Virus record (IMG/VR): IMGVR_UViG_3300024505_000010
Location: 1 to 33,516 of that record
DNA length: 33,516 nt
Source: a virus
Reading direction: 5' to 3' (one strand)
Notes under the pieces: generated by a model
The model's input: only the letters and a program-made list of their open reading frames with translations
The model's database searches: none
What the model was told of the DNA's origin: nothing
Translations under genes and position numbers: made by a program
Shown here: positions 6,440-18,272 of the stretch, one piece after another
How positions within the stretch are numbered: the first letter of the stretch is position 1
How the letters are laid out: every line of letters begins with the position of its first letter

Positions 6440-7963
6440 ATGAAGTTGACGTACGTGGAGTTGTTCGCCGGGGCCGGGGGAATGAGCCTCGGCCTCGAAA
6501 CCGCTGGCTGGCGGTGCGTGGCTCACGCGGAGATTGAACCTCACGCCCGCGCTGTGTTGCGCCATCATTGGCCGGAGGTGCCGCTCTTTGGCGATGTCGC
6601 GGAACTTGACGGCACCCAGTTTCGCGGGGTCACGATGGTCACCGGCGGGTCGCCGTGTCAGGACCTGTCCATCGCTGGAAAGCGCAAGGGGATGACCGAA
6701 GGATCGGGCACCCGCTCGTCGCTGTTCTTTGAGCAGGTCCGCATCTGGAATGAATCCGAAGCCCCCTACATCCTCTGGGAGAACGTTTATGGAGCCTTCA
6801 GCAGTAATGCCGGACGGGATTTCGCCGCCGTCCTATCAGCCATCGTGGGAGGAGCCGTCCCTGTTCCCTCGGACGGATGGGTCCGTGCAGGTGTGGTTGC
6901 AGGACCGACCGGAATCGCCGCGTGGCGGGTATTGGACGCTCAATACTTCGGGGTGCCACAACGCCGTCGCCGTGTCTTTGTCCTCGGTGTTAGAGGCGGA
7001 GGGGTTGATCCCGCAGAAGTACTATCTCTCGCCGAAAGCCTGTCAGGGCATCTTGCGGCGAGCGGAGAAGCGCGGGAAAGCATTGCCACCGATGCTGGAG
7101 AGGGCGCTTCAGTCACGCGCACAGGATTCAGCACTACCGGGTCAGTCGGATACGTCCACGACGTGATGCCAACGCTTCCGCACAAGACGGGATTGGGATG
7201 CGCTGGAGCGCAGATGGTTGGCGTGTTAGAATCGCCCAATGTTCTTGCGCTTGACATATACAACCAGAGCATCAGCCCGAATGGTGTCGCACACACCATT
7301 CGGGCAATGAATACTGGTGAAGGCATTCCGCATACATTGACGGTTGAAGCCATTCCGTTACAGAACCCGACCATCGTCGGCAAGGCACAGAATGGACTCG
7401 GTATCGGGCAATCAGGAGATCCAATGTACTCACTTGAATCGGTGGGGCACGGCGTATTTACCTATGACGCTCGAGGCAACGGCCAAGGTGTTGGCGACAA
7501 CACCTTGGCTGGCGACCACCAGAACCGCGTGACGGATTACACCGCCATCGTTCTTCGTAATCGGGAAGGCAAGCCCGGCGGCGGCAAGGGGCCGCTCCTC
7601 TCTGCCGAGCGTTCGCTGACGCTCGGCACCGCCAACGATCAGGTCGTGTTTACGAAGCAGCAGTTCGGCAGATTTGAGGAAGGTCCAAGCGTTGCGTCAA
7701 CGCTTGGCGCACGGGACCACGCCGCTCAGCACACGGATGTCGCCATTGGTTCGGTTGGCGTCCCCCGTCGCCTGACACCGGTGGAGTGTGAGCGGTTGAT
7801 GGGATGGCCGGACGAGCACACCGCCCACGGCATCAGCGAGGCTGGCAAGGCTTACGCGCTCGCGGACACCGCCCGCTACAAGCTCTGCGGCAACGGGATT
7901 GCCAGCCCCGTGACCGCGTGGATTGGATTTCAACTGGCTGGCCTATTGACAGGCGGCAAGTAG
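6440..7963 (+). CDS. C5-cytosine DNA methyltransferase (Dcm-type)
   Basis: A 507-residue enzyme that transfers methyl from S-adenosylmethionine to C5 of cytosine. ATG 6440 is preceded by AAGGGA and a strong promoter; the frame stays open upstream to 6152, but that part has no family features. Motifs in order: I, FAGAGGMSLGLE (9-20); IV, GGSPCQDLSIAG with nucleophile Cys73; VI, ENV (Glu114); VIII, QRRRR (174-178); IX, RRLTPVECERLMGWPD (443-458); X, YKLCGNGIASPV near the C-terminus. The recognition region between VIII and IX is unusually long (about 185-440) and full of short related segments such as PNGVAHTIRAMNTGEGIPHTL, as in multispecific phage enzymes. The likely role is protection of phage DNA from host restriction. 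A separate gene is overprinted at 6789-7166. No partner nuclease is seen. Confidence 0.95.
   Translation: MKLTYVELFAGAGGMSLGLETAGWRCVAHAEIEPHARAVLRHHWPEVPLFGDVAELDGTQFRGVTMVTGGSPCQDLSIAGKRKGMTEGSGTRSSLFFEQVRIWNESEAPYILWENVYGAFSSNAGRDFAAVLSAIVGGAVPVPSDGWVRAGVVAGPTGIAAWRVLDAQYFGVPQRRRRVFVLGVRGGGVDPAEVLSLAESLSGHLAASGEARESIATDAGEGASVTRTGFSTTGSVGYVHDVMPTLPHKTGLGCAGAQMVGVLESPNVLALDIYNQSISPNGVAHTIRAMNTGEGIPHTLTVEAIPLQNPTIVGKAQNGLGIGQSGDPMYSLESVGHGVFTYDARGNGQGVGDNTLAGDHQNRVTDYTAIVLRNREGKPGGGKGPLLSAERSLTLGTANDQVVFTKQQFGRFEEGPSVASTLGARDHAAQHTDVAIGSVGVPRRLTPVECERLMGWPDEHTAHGISEAGKAYALADTARYKLCGNGIASPVTAWIGFQLAGLLTGGK
6789..7166 (+). CDS. Overprinted gene inside the methyltransferase (conserved LSPKACxGILRRAEKRGK family)
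   Basis: A 125-residue ORF in a different frame from the methyltransferase, lying fully inside it over the motif VI-VIII part and the start of the recognition region. ATG 6789 has GGGAGA at 6777-6782 with 6-base spacing, a good ribosome site. The ORF is open further up to a TTG at 6729. The protein has the pattern GYWTLNTSGCHNAVAVSLSS, then VLE, then IPQKYYLSPKACQGILRRAE, then KRGKALPPMLERAL. From general knowledge, this pattern belongs to a small protein family often found overlapping Dcm-type genes in phages; its function is unknown. Both frames look like real protein at once: the methyltransferase frame keeps QRRRRVFVLG here while this frame keeps its own motif. No frameshift is needed to explain either. 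Confidence 0.7.
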   Translation: MEPSAVMPDGISPPSYQPSWEEPSLFPRTDGSVQVWLQDRPESPRGGYWTLNTSGCHNAVAVSLSSVLEAEGLIPQKYYLSPKACQGILRRAEKRGKALPPMLERALQSRAQDSALPGQSDTSTT

Positions 7964-15290: not shown

Positions 15291-18272
15291 TTGACACCTC
15301 CCAAGCGCAAGCCGTTTCTGGTTCGCGTGAGCGATGCGCTCCGCGTCCTCTCTGATACGACCGAACGCGGTGAGGAGACCCGCGCCATTATTCAGACCAC
15401 GTACCCCAACTTCCCTGCTGGTCAGCAGCAGATGGCGTTGGTGCGGACGGCGAACCCCGGCGAGTACCGATACGACGGCGCGACCATTCGCAATCAGGGG
15501 TTTAGCCGTCACCCCGTGGTTCACGCGTGTATCCGAGCGGTGGCCGACATTGTGGCGTCGGTGCCGCTCGTTGTGTTGCAGGAGCGCGGCAACTACGAGT
15601 CCCGCGTTGGCGAGGACAACCCGTTGCAGAAGCTCCTCGACTATCCCGGCCCGCGATTCACGGCCCGTCAGTTCCGATCGCGTTTCGCCGTGGATTACCT
15701 CGGGTACGGAAACGCGTTCTTCCAGATGGATCGCACCGCGCCGGGACGTGCGCCAGTTGGTCTTCGGCCCGTCAATCCCGAGTCAATGCAACAGGTCTGG
15801 ATTGACCCCGAGGGCGACCCGCGCCGGTACGACTACTCGAATTGGGCGGGTATCGTCGTGCAGGTGCCGGTGGAGGATATGCTCCATTTCCGCGACCTCG
15901 ATATGCCGCGTCCGTTCCAAGCGGACGTGTTCGGGTATCCCCGTGGCGCGACGGCCATCGGGTCGATGCTTGCGGACAACGAGGCGACGCAGTACGTCCG
16001 GCAGGTCGTGACGAACGACGGCACCCCGACGTTCGCCGTCCTGATGGCTGACGAGGCGACCAGCGAGGACGCCAGCGCGATGCAGGACCGCTACCGCGCC
16101 CGCGTGGTGGATCGTGGCAAGCGCGGCACCCCGGCGTTCTTTGGCGCGGTCAAGGACATCAAGCCGCTCGGGTTCACGCTCTCGGACCTTGAGTTCCCCG
16201 ACCTTCGGCGCGTGTCCCGCGAGGACATCTGCGCCGCGTTTGGCGTGGACCCGCGAATGGTCGGTATCGCCTCCGCGTCGAGTGACGGAGGGCTGTCTGG
16301 CGTCCAGTATGCCGAGGCTCGGGCGCGGCTCGTCCAGCATACGATCGAGCCGATGTTCTCCGCGTTGGAGGACGAACTGAACCATTGGCTCGCGCCCGAG
16401 TTTGGCGACGTGTGGATCACCTACGACCACGACAAGCTCCGCGACCTCGTTGAGAACGACACCGAGACCTCGACCCGCATCCGGGCCGAGTACGATATGG
16501 GCCTCCGCACGTGGGAGGAGAGTCGGTCGGCCATCAAGCTGTCGCCGCTCCCGGAGCCGACGGACAGCATCCTCAAGACCGCTGGCAAGGACTTGATTCC
16601 GGCAGCGGTGGCGGTCATCGACCCCTCCACCATCCTCGACCAGCCCCCGGCGACTGACAACGAGACGCCGATGGTCGGTGGGGACACGAACGCGCCCAAG
16701 CAAATCGCCGCCGAGTCGGTAGATGACGTGCCCGGAGAAGGGGCCACGCCGGACGTGGTGGAGCCGCCGACGCGCCGCATTGATCGCGTTCAGGTCCGTG
16801 CCTACTTCGAGGACGCACTTGACGGCGACCAGATTGAGCAGTTGGTCGAATTGCTGGAAGCCCTTGTTGAGAAGGAACTCCCGCCGCAGACGGTCAAGGC
16901 TGCGCTGTTGGCCGCGTTCCCTAACGTGGACCCCGAACTGATTGACGAGATGGTGGCGGGGCTTGAAGGCTTCGAGGTGCCCGAGGAAGAGCCGGAAGCC
17001 CCGGAGATGCCGGAGATGCCCGAGGATACCACCGAGGAGTCTCGGGCCGCTGGCGTGACGAACTTCCCGAACGATGGCGACGATAAGGCTGTCTCGCTTC
17101 GGTCATCGCAATGGGCGCAGTTCCCGGTCGATGAGGCCGAGGACTTGAAGGAGAACTGGCCCGAGATTTGGCGAAAGGGTGGCAACGTCAAGGGCAACGA
17201 GCAGTTCCGCAAGCTGGCCCCAATCGCCAAGCGTGGCGGGAAGCCGGACGGACTGGCCGAGGAGAACGCCATTCGCCTCCGCGAGGCGTGGGTTGCTCGG
17301 CACCGGGGTGACTTCCAGTTGGCCGGAGTGATTGCACAGGTCAAGTGGCTTGCCGTTGGGGATCGCGGCCTCTCGCATATGCGAAAGGTTATCCGCGAGG
17401 CCAAGGCCGCGCTGGAAACGAAGTCGGCCCGCAGCCAGCCGATAACGGGCGGCGAGATGACGCCGACGATGGACCCGCAGATTGACCCCGCGCTCGACCG
17501 CAAGCGGGCTATCTGGGAGCGGGCGATGCAGGAACTCGACCGCACCGAGCAGACCTATCGGGCGACCGCCGAGGCCCTGTTCCGCGCCGAGCGGCCCAAG
17601 ATGACCAAGTCCATCGCGTCCGCTGGCGACTTCGCGACTGCCCGCGCTCGGGTGCTTGACGCCTATCGCACGGGTGGCGAGATGGATGCCGCGTGGCAGG
17701 AGTCATTTACGCCGCTGGTCGCCAAGAGCTATTCGTTCGGGGCGACCGAGGTGGCTGGCAGCGGGGCCGACTTGAAGGCCGATGTGCAGGAGTCAGGCCT
17801 GACCGAGCGGTCGGTGGCGACGGTGCGCGAGGCGATCCGTAAGCGCACGGCGCGGCTGGCCGAGCTAATCGGTGACACGACGGCCCGTGAGGTGATGGCG
17901 GTGATTGAGGCGTCCGAGCGGGCTGGCCTGACCGTGACGGAGACCTCGCGACTGGTCGGCCGTGCGGTCTATGGCGAAAAGCGGGTGACCACGCGTTCGA
18001 CGGCGATTGCCCGTACCGAGTCGGCTGGTGCGCTCTCGCAGGGATCGTGGGACCAAGCGAAGGAGATGGGCGACCTCTATCGCTCGAAGGAGTGGCTGGC
18101 GTTCTCCGACGCCGAGACCCGCGAGACGCATACCGCGTGTATGGCGCAGGGACGCATCGGAATCAACGATGTGTTTACCAATGGCCTGATGTATCCGCTC
18201 GATCCGAGTGGTCCGGCTGATGAAGTCATCAACTGCCGGTGCGTGTTAGCTTACTCGGATGAGCCGGTGTAG
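15291..18272 (+). CDS. Portal protein fused to a Mu F-like head morphogenesis protein
   Basis: A 993-residue protein. A stop in frame at 15276 limits the start; TTG 15291, with GGGG upstream, is the best choice. Residues about 1-430 are an HK97-type portal (IRNQGFSRHPVVHACIRAVA, YLGYGNAFFQMDR, ASASSDGGLSGVQYAEARAR). An acidic linker follows, with a run of Glu/Pro/Met about 565-585. Residues about 599-709 form a compact module (LRSSQWAQFPVDEAEDLKEN, WPEIWRKGGNVKGNEQFRKL) also seen in other phage head proteins. The C-terminus (about 900-990) is a Mu F/SPP1 gp7 domain (ARTESAGALSQGSWDQAKEM; HTACMAQGRIGINDVFTNGL; VINCRCVLAYSDE). The portal dodecamer is the DNA gate; Mu F proteins are minor head proteins. 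These are usually separate genes. Confidence 0.92.
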   Translation: MTPPKRKPFLVRVSDALRVLSDTTERGEETRAIIQTTYPNFPAGQQQMALVRTANPGEYRYDGATIRNQGFSRHPVVHACIRAVADIVASVPLVVLQERGNYESRVGEDNPLQKLLDYPGPRFTARQFRSRFAVDYLGYGNAFFQMDRTAPGRAPVGLRPVNPESMQQVWIDPEGDPRRYDYSNWAGIVVQVPVEDMLHFRDLDMPRPFQADVFGYPRGATAIGSMLADNEATQYVRQVVTNDGTPTFAVLMADEATSEDASAMQDRYRARVVDRGKRGTPAFFGAVKDIKPLGFTLSDLEFPDLRRVSREDICAAFGVDPRMVGIASASSDGGLSGVQYAEARARLVQHTIEPMFSALEDELNHWLAPEFGDVWITYDHDKLRDLVENDTETSTRIRAEYDMGLRTWEESRSAIKLSPLPEPTDSILKTAGKDLIPAAVAVIDPSTILDQPPATDNETPMVGGDTNAPKQIAAESVDDVPGEGATPDVVEPPTRRIDRVQVRAYFEDALDGDQIEQLVELLEALVEKELPPQTVKAALLAAFPNVDPELIDEMVAGLEGFEVPEEEPEAPEMPEMPEDTTEESRAAGVTNFPNDGDDKAVSLRSSQWAQFPVDEAEDLKENWPEIWRKGGNVKGNEQFRKLAPIAKRGGKPDGLAEENAIRLREAWVARHRGDFQLAGVIAQVKWLAVGDRGLSHMRKVIREAKAALETKSARSQPITGGEMTPTMDPQIDPALDRKRAIWERAMQELDRTEQTYRATAEALFRAERPKMTKSIASAGDFATARARVLDAYRTGGEMDAAWQESFTPLVAKSYSFGATEVAGSGADLKADVQESGLTERSVATVREAIRKRTARLAELIGDTTAREVMAVIEASERAGLTVTETSRLVGRAVYGEKRVTTRSTAIARTESAGALSQGSWDQAKEMGDLYRSKEWLAFSDAETRETHTACMAQGRIGINDVFTNGLMYPLDPSGPADEVINCRCVLAYSDEPV

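Follow-up and report, generated by a model that had tools for sequence, protein, structure and literature searches.

M.AquI and M.EcoHK31I each divide the function of a cytosine-5 DNA methyltransferase between two polypeptides. M.AquI is interrupted in the variable region that follows motif VIII (PMC3404938), and complementation of split C5-methyltransferases is known to work best with a C-terminal piece that begins between motif VIII and the target-recognition domain (PMC3404938). In M.EcoHK31I the beta polypeptide is translated from a second frame within the alpha gene. The overlap described here, in which a phage methyltransferase gene appears to encode a small protein in a shifted frame, resembles these systems in principle, but differs from them in that motifs I-X reside on one polypeptide and the second protein bears no methyltransferase motif. 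Because all motifs lie in a single open reading frame, the locus does not qualify as a two-polypeptide C5-methyltransferase of the M.AquI type; that description is met only in relatives such as L365, L366 and L409. Split relatives are confined to the fused and overlap-free forms discussed below, which carry an extra N-terminal domain. The bifunctional Dam/Dcm-like methyltransferase of phage P1, Dmt, has the same overprinted frame in the same place, but contains an added Dam domain, and the small frame is unannotated in the P1 record. We found no earlier report of the methyltransferase/small-protein overlap in the open-access literature searched.

The window, the whole stretch of DNA that was analysed, is a 33.5-kb virus record with tailed-phage genes (terminase, portal, major head protein). 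Its plus strand encodes a cytosine-5 DNA methyltransferase of 507 aa (6440..7963), which matches Pfam PF00145 (DNA_methylase; E 2e-45) and NCBIfam TIGR00675 (dcm; E 1e-46) and qualifies as a C5-cytosine methyltransferase (PF00145) by displaying motifs I, IV (PCQ), VI (ENV), VIII and IX in order. A preliminary description of the sequence had considered this host frame intact, motif VIII included, and this held: the frame is uninterrupted from the ATG at 6440 to 7963 and includes motif VIII, FGVPQRRRR (6947..6973, plus strand, placed by sequence and alignment and overlapped by the small protein), together with the downstream RRLTPVECERLMG. In the AlphaFold2 model residues 1-205 and 441-507 are ordered and 207-440 are of low confidence; the variable region between motifs VIII and IX (7058..7759, plus strand) has pLDDT values mostly of 30-44, and its start underlies the core of the small protein. 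Over 7170-7760 (methyltransferase residues about 245-440) this region seemingly consists of ~30-residue modules, e.g. DARGNGQGVGDNTLAGDHQNRVTDYTAIV and GGGKGPLLSAERSLTLGTANDQVVF. Such modules reappear in unrelated phage methyltransferases (e.g. L012, L328), and it is possible that they are target-recognition modules. Elsewhere in the window, a single 993-residue ORF (15291-18272) matches a portal protein towards the N-terminus and a head-morphogenesis protein towards the C-terminus, and is inferred from sequence alone to be a portal/head-morphogenesis fusion.

The overprinted ORF lies on the plus strand in the +1 frame of the methyltransferase (6789..7166) and runs for 125 codons from an ATG at 6789 to a stop at 7164-7166; its assignment to a small protein of 125 aa rests on the open frame, on hundreds of loci with a homologue at this position and on the selection tests presented below. 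A likely ribosome-binding site, GGGAGA (6777..6782, plus strand), is found six bases upstream of the ATG, and both are conserved in eight of nine close relatives, one of those eight having GGGAAA. The preliminary description had reported this frame together with its ribosome site, which stands with one correction: the small frame opens earlier, at about 6697, giving 156 codons with a TTG at 6729, so that ATG 6789 is the most likely start and not the sole candidate, its exact position being inferred. Start codons of the small protein vary among lineages. Alternative-frame ATGs show a modest enrichment of ribosome sites (29% versus 21% and 14%, all alternative-frame ATGs being counted), a mildly positive result on which we do not rely.

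Several independent features of the alignments bear on selection in the two frames. Synonymous recoding of 77 methyltransferase genes introduced a stop into the small frame in 94% of simulations, against 0/77 real genes, and lowered the median small-protein profile score from 123 to 27 bits (some of the test sequences had also trained the profile). When both members of a pair have the same methyltransferase residue, its codon is also the same in 47.7% of cases ahead of the small frame, in 86.0% over the small-frame core, in 58.5% over the tail and in 48.8% beyond the stop; the 674 pairs, drawn from 310 loci, are not independent, but the contrast is large. In the last 45 alignment columns (125 non-redundant rows) amino-acid entropy amounts to 1.54 bits in the small frame versus 2.51 in the methyltransferase frame, and nucleotide entropy at the three codon positions of the small frame is 1.06, 0.84 and 1.61, that is, the least variable position over the core is the wobble position of the methyltransferase and the most variable one is that of the small protein. 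Loci selected by methyltransferase motifs yield amino-acid entropies of 1.65 versus 2.61 and codon-position entropies of 1.14, 0.91 and 1.64. The relation is reversed in the first 35 columns, upstream over motif VIII, where the methyltransferase frame is more conserved. Among close relatives of the window, a comparison that includes the more distant L010 and L085, third positions of the methyltransferase differ at rates of about 23-49% upstream and 8-11% over the core; its first positions, which are the wobble positions of the small frame, are equally or more variable over the core than upstream.

The recoding simulation, the codon-identity test and the codon-position entropies, the last also in the methyltransferase-selected subset, exclude a chance frame. 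Both defining properties of an overprinted gene are present: the two frames are open and conserved over the same DNA in diverged relatives, and synonymous change in the host frame is reduced over the overlap (0.860 in the core vs 0.477/0.488 outside). We are therefore highly confident that the ORF at 6789-7166 is a real protein-coding overprinted gene, its translation in the window phage being inferred. The earlier suggestion that both proteins are selected in one stretch of DNA is upheld by the recoding, codon identity, codon-position entropies and absence of stops, and the synonymous-site check proposed with it reveals strong constraint on the methyltransferase over the small-protein core.

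The N-terminal part of the small protein (6789..6977, plus strand) is weakly conserved and overlies the ordered, conserved region of the methyltransferase up to motif VIII; its pLDDT in the AlphaFold2 model is about 56, residues 1-62 being of low confidence. The core that follows (residues 64-113; 6978..7127, plus strand), delimited by entropy and by pLDDT of 96-97 over most of its length, contains helices at 64-69, 82-95 and 101-113. The model thus predicts a disordered or flexible N-terminal part and a core of three confident helices. The core consensus, of about 50 residues, is LSxxLE..KYYLSxKACxGILRRAxKRGKxLPxxLxxAL, and the core is basic, with the stretch RRAEKRGK and invariant R/K columns. 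Helices 2 and 3 fall mostly over the edge or start of the methyltransferase variable region and the disordered N-terminus over the conserved catalytic region, which indicates that the two proteins share out the DNA between them. No significant match to the small protein was obtained in Pfam, NCBIfam or PADLOC, a PDB sequence search with two small-protein profiles retrieved no solved structure, and a Foldseek search against the PDB returned insignificant matches only (best E 3.8). In the absence of a sequence match to solved structures or a significant fold match, the biochemical role of the protein rests on gene fusion only. A resemblance to sigma-factor helices was set aside as chance, the Foldseek matches being insignificant, and membership in the DNA-mimic antirestriction proteins of the Ocr/ArdA type is not met, the core being basic and not strongly acidic.

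A tblastn search with the small protein retrieved 131 phage records, mostly labelled methyltransferases, from Vibrio, mycobacterial, Escherichia (P1), Streptococcus and Ruminococcus phages; plasmids supply 529 records, most of them P1-like, and the protein is also encoded in the genomes of Pseudomonadota, Bacillota, Acidobacteria, Nitrospirota, Bifidobacterium and other bacteria. We infer that it is maintained by evolution in phages of many bacterial phyla, phage P1 included. A census by pattern recorded 334 nested loci and 15 fused-in-overlap loci, with more of both recognized on reading and some loci overlapping or repeated. In the first regular-expression census 19 loci lacked a recognised methyltransferase frame over the core; on reading, all but L113 have one. 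All copies inspected lie inside methyltransferase genes, except that of Mycobacterium phage Thibault and the fused beta proteins. As the first collections had been chosen with small-protein patterns, sampling was redone with methyltransferase motifs I/VIII only. Every one of the loci so selected (75/75, motif VIII being located by pattern) has an open small frame, ending 57-85 codons past motif VIII; the strict core pattern is present in 64 and the remaining 11 are recognisable variants. None of 28 control bacterial C5-methyltransferase loci from 57 Pseudomonadales genomes, some of them pieces of one gene, contains the small frame, the sole matches in that search lying in a prophage already known to carry it. 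The small frame is a feature of a phage-type methyltransferase subfamily. The preliminary description had stated that the pattern recurs within Dcm-type genes, and would have been refuted by a lack of homologues or by frequent stops in relatives that keep the methyltransferase. This statement held, homologues being abundant and situated inside methyltransferase genes, and neither refuting outcome was seen, the small frame of relatives being free of stops.

Some observations concern the margins of this family and its annotation. Clostridial methyltransferases (L367-L374, some with FGVPQSRKR) have a +1 frame with a similar N-terminal part and a KYxLSP motif and a different C-terminal end, possibly a second subtype of the small protein. 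In Faecalibacterium phage Lelie (L329, 2289-3531) the methyltransferase appears circularly permuted, with the order VIII, IX, X, then motif I; its start resembles a small-frame start (MECIQLSLSGKM), and the small-protein core is retained in the +1 frame of motif VIII. The family phrog_16143 ('DNA methyltransferase', 139 positions) is matched, weakly, by 11 of 15 small-protein family members, and its name was probably borrowed from the overlapping gene. As it matches the frame of the small protein, it is a possible annotation trap; another is phrog_864 ('DNA primase'), which contains a C5-methyltransferase stretch at positions 668-933.

In a number of relatives the small protein is physically joined to the methyltransferase. 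The small frame of L012/L013, L067, L170, L171, L222 and others continues in frame into the C-terminal half of the enzyme (variable region, motifs IX-X), and the catalytic half terminates in the other frame. Such fusions occur in Pseudomonas, Clostridia, freshwater phage and Myxococcales loci, and the fused form is common in Oscillospirales genomes; L410 and L411 exhibit the nested and fused states in close relatives. In L365, L366, L339 and L409 the overlap is resolved: an alpha gene stops just past motif VIII, and a beta gene consists of the small-protein domain, then the variable region, then motif IX/X. The competing frame of these beta genes is open for 28-49 codons only, and the old overlapping copy in alpha has acquired stops (L365, L339) or lost the core (L366, L409). 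The four sequences probably represent one lineage, a gut-Clostridia clade, and come from draft assembled genomes and an unverified faecal phage record. Frameshift sequencing errors may underlie single fused cases, but error alone is inadequate, since fusions are seen repeatedly in unrelated lineages, with a gradation towards overlap-free genes. Whether fused or overlap-free, the beta genes require a start in the small frame, which is indirect evidence of translation only. The fusion of the domain to the C-terminal half, and its persistence without an overlying methyltransferase frame in the overlap-free clade, show that selection acts on the peptide as a protein and link it to the C-terminal half; the small frame therefore encodes a real protein connected with the methyltransferase. 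The in-frame fusion in several lineages and the overlap-free separation in one gut-Clostridia clade are new. In a further twelve viral loci (L089, L094, L099, L100, L114, L118, L119, L137, L142, L151, L152, L158) motif IX is in a different frame from the catalytic half, and the methyltransferase is likely split into separate ORFs just past the small frame.

Thibault presents a different situation. Its methyltransferase (L083, 1820-3621) is disrupted by an HNH gene and frameshift(s), unlike that of the window, and a methylase is listed as absent from this phage in the cluster J paper (PMC3706429). The small-protein core nevertheless survives there with its own ATG as gp104, which, like the small protein of the window, has the family core; it is annotated, with function unknown. 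Either the small protein functions alone in Thibault or the decay of the methyltransferase is recent; both are possible.

What could be the role of the small protein? We propose that ribosomes initiate on it within the methyltransferase message, in the window probably at ATG 6789, and that its synthesis from this shared mRNA would keep pace with that of the enzyme. The product would have a flexible N-terminal stretch followed by a basic domain of three helices, about 50 residues long, which would sit where the catalytic half (motifs I-VIII) meets the half with target recognition and motifs IX-X. There it may help to assemble the methyltransferase, position it on DNA or regulate it, and its basic helices could contact DNA or the catalytic half. 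A functional link to the methyltransferase is likely, with binding to the enzyme and an effect on methylation inferred. The more specific reading of an accessory subunit at the domain junction is favoured because the split site preferred in complementation (PMC3404938) coincides with the site at which the domain is joined in the fused forms; with expression and biochemistry untested, we hold this inference only slightly, if at all, more probable than its negation. The explanation as a whole, a genuine second protein overprinted on a phage-type methyltransferase and serving as its accessory subunit, has in our judgement a modest advantage. The preliminary suggestion that the small protein acts on the methyltransferase is thus supported by natural fusions to the enzyme's C-terminal half, the action itself not being shown.

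Among the alternatives, the small protein might have a function of its own, unrelated to the methyltransferase (antirestriction or host takeover, for instance), with the overlap providing co-expression only. Phage methyltransferases do serve antirestriction, Thibault retains the small protein despite a broken methyltransferase, and the basic core could bind nucleic acid. This is nonetheless unlikely, given that inspected copies, save those of Thibault and the fused beta proteins, all lie inside methyltransferase genes and that recurrent fusions join the methyltransferase C-terminal half; the particular proposal of an action on host restriction is neither shown nor excluded. It is likewise improbable that the small protein regulates methyltransferase synthesis, by binding the mRNA or promoter or through translational coupling. 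The basic helical domain, the nested position and the autoregulatory DNA-binding domains of known methyltransferases (PMC12707154) speak for such a role, but fusion to the C-terminal half is more readily reconciled with a structural contribution to the enzyme. A conserved RNA or DNA signal would, like any embedded signal, lower synonymous change, but is all but excluded as the cause of the frozen sites, since variation tracks the shifted-frame codon positions across the core, no stops interrupt the small frame, and the overlap-free clade retains the peptide on unrelated DNA. The notion of an untranslated shadow frame, conserved as a by-product of the methyltransferase protein, draws on similarity before and at motif VIII that is partly forced by methyltransferase motifs (the first 35 columns), but can be practically dismissed, as 94% of synonymous recodings destroy the small frame, the core leaves methyltransferase wobble positions almost no freedom to vary, and the domain persists without a methyltransferase frame over it where the overlapped copy has lost its core.

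A bolder version of the accessory-subunit reading would regard the small protein as an unrecognised family and an obligatory methyltransferase partner, encoded nearly always in the shifted frame in many phyla, with independent splits and one escape; the case for and against it appears to us evenly balanced. The methyltransferase and the small protein are apparently among the most widespread overprinted gene pairs in bacteria and phages, present even in P1, and gene callers overlook the small protein because it lies inside a long gene. The nested, fused-in-overlap and overlap-resolved states constitute a rare natural series for following how an overlapping gene becomes bound up with the enzyme that hosts it and is then released. 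Should the small protein prove to be a subunit, a component would be missing from many phage methyltransferases produced from codon-optimised genes, since recoding removes the second frame.
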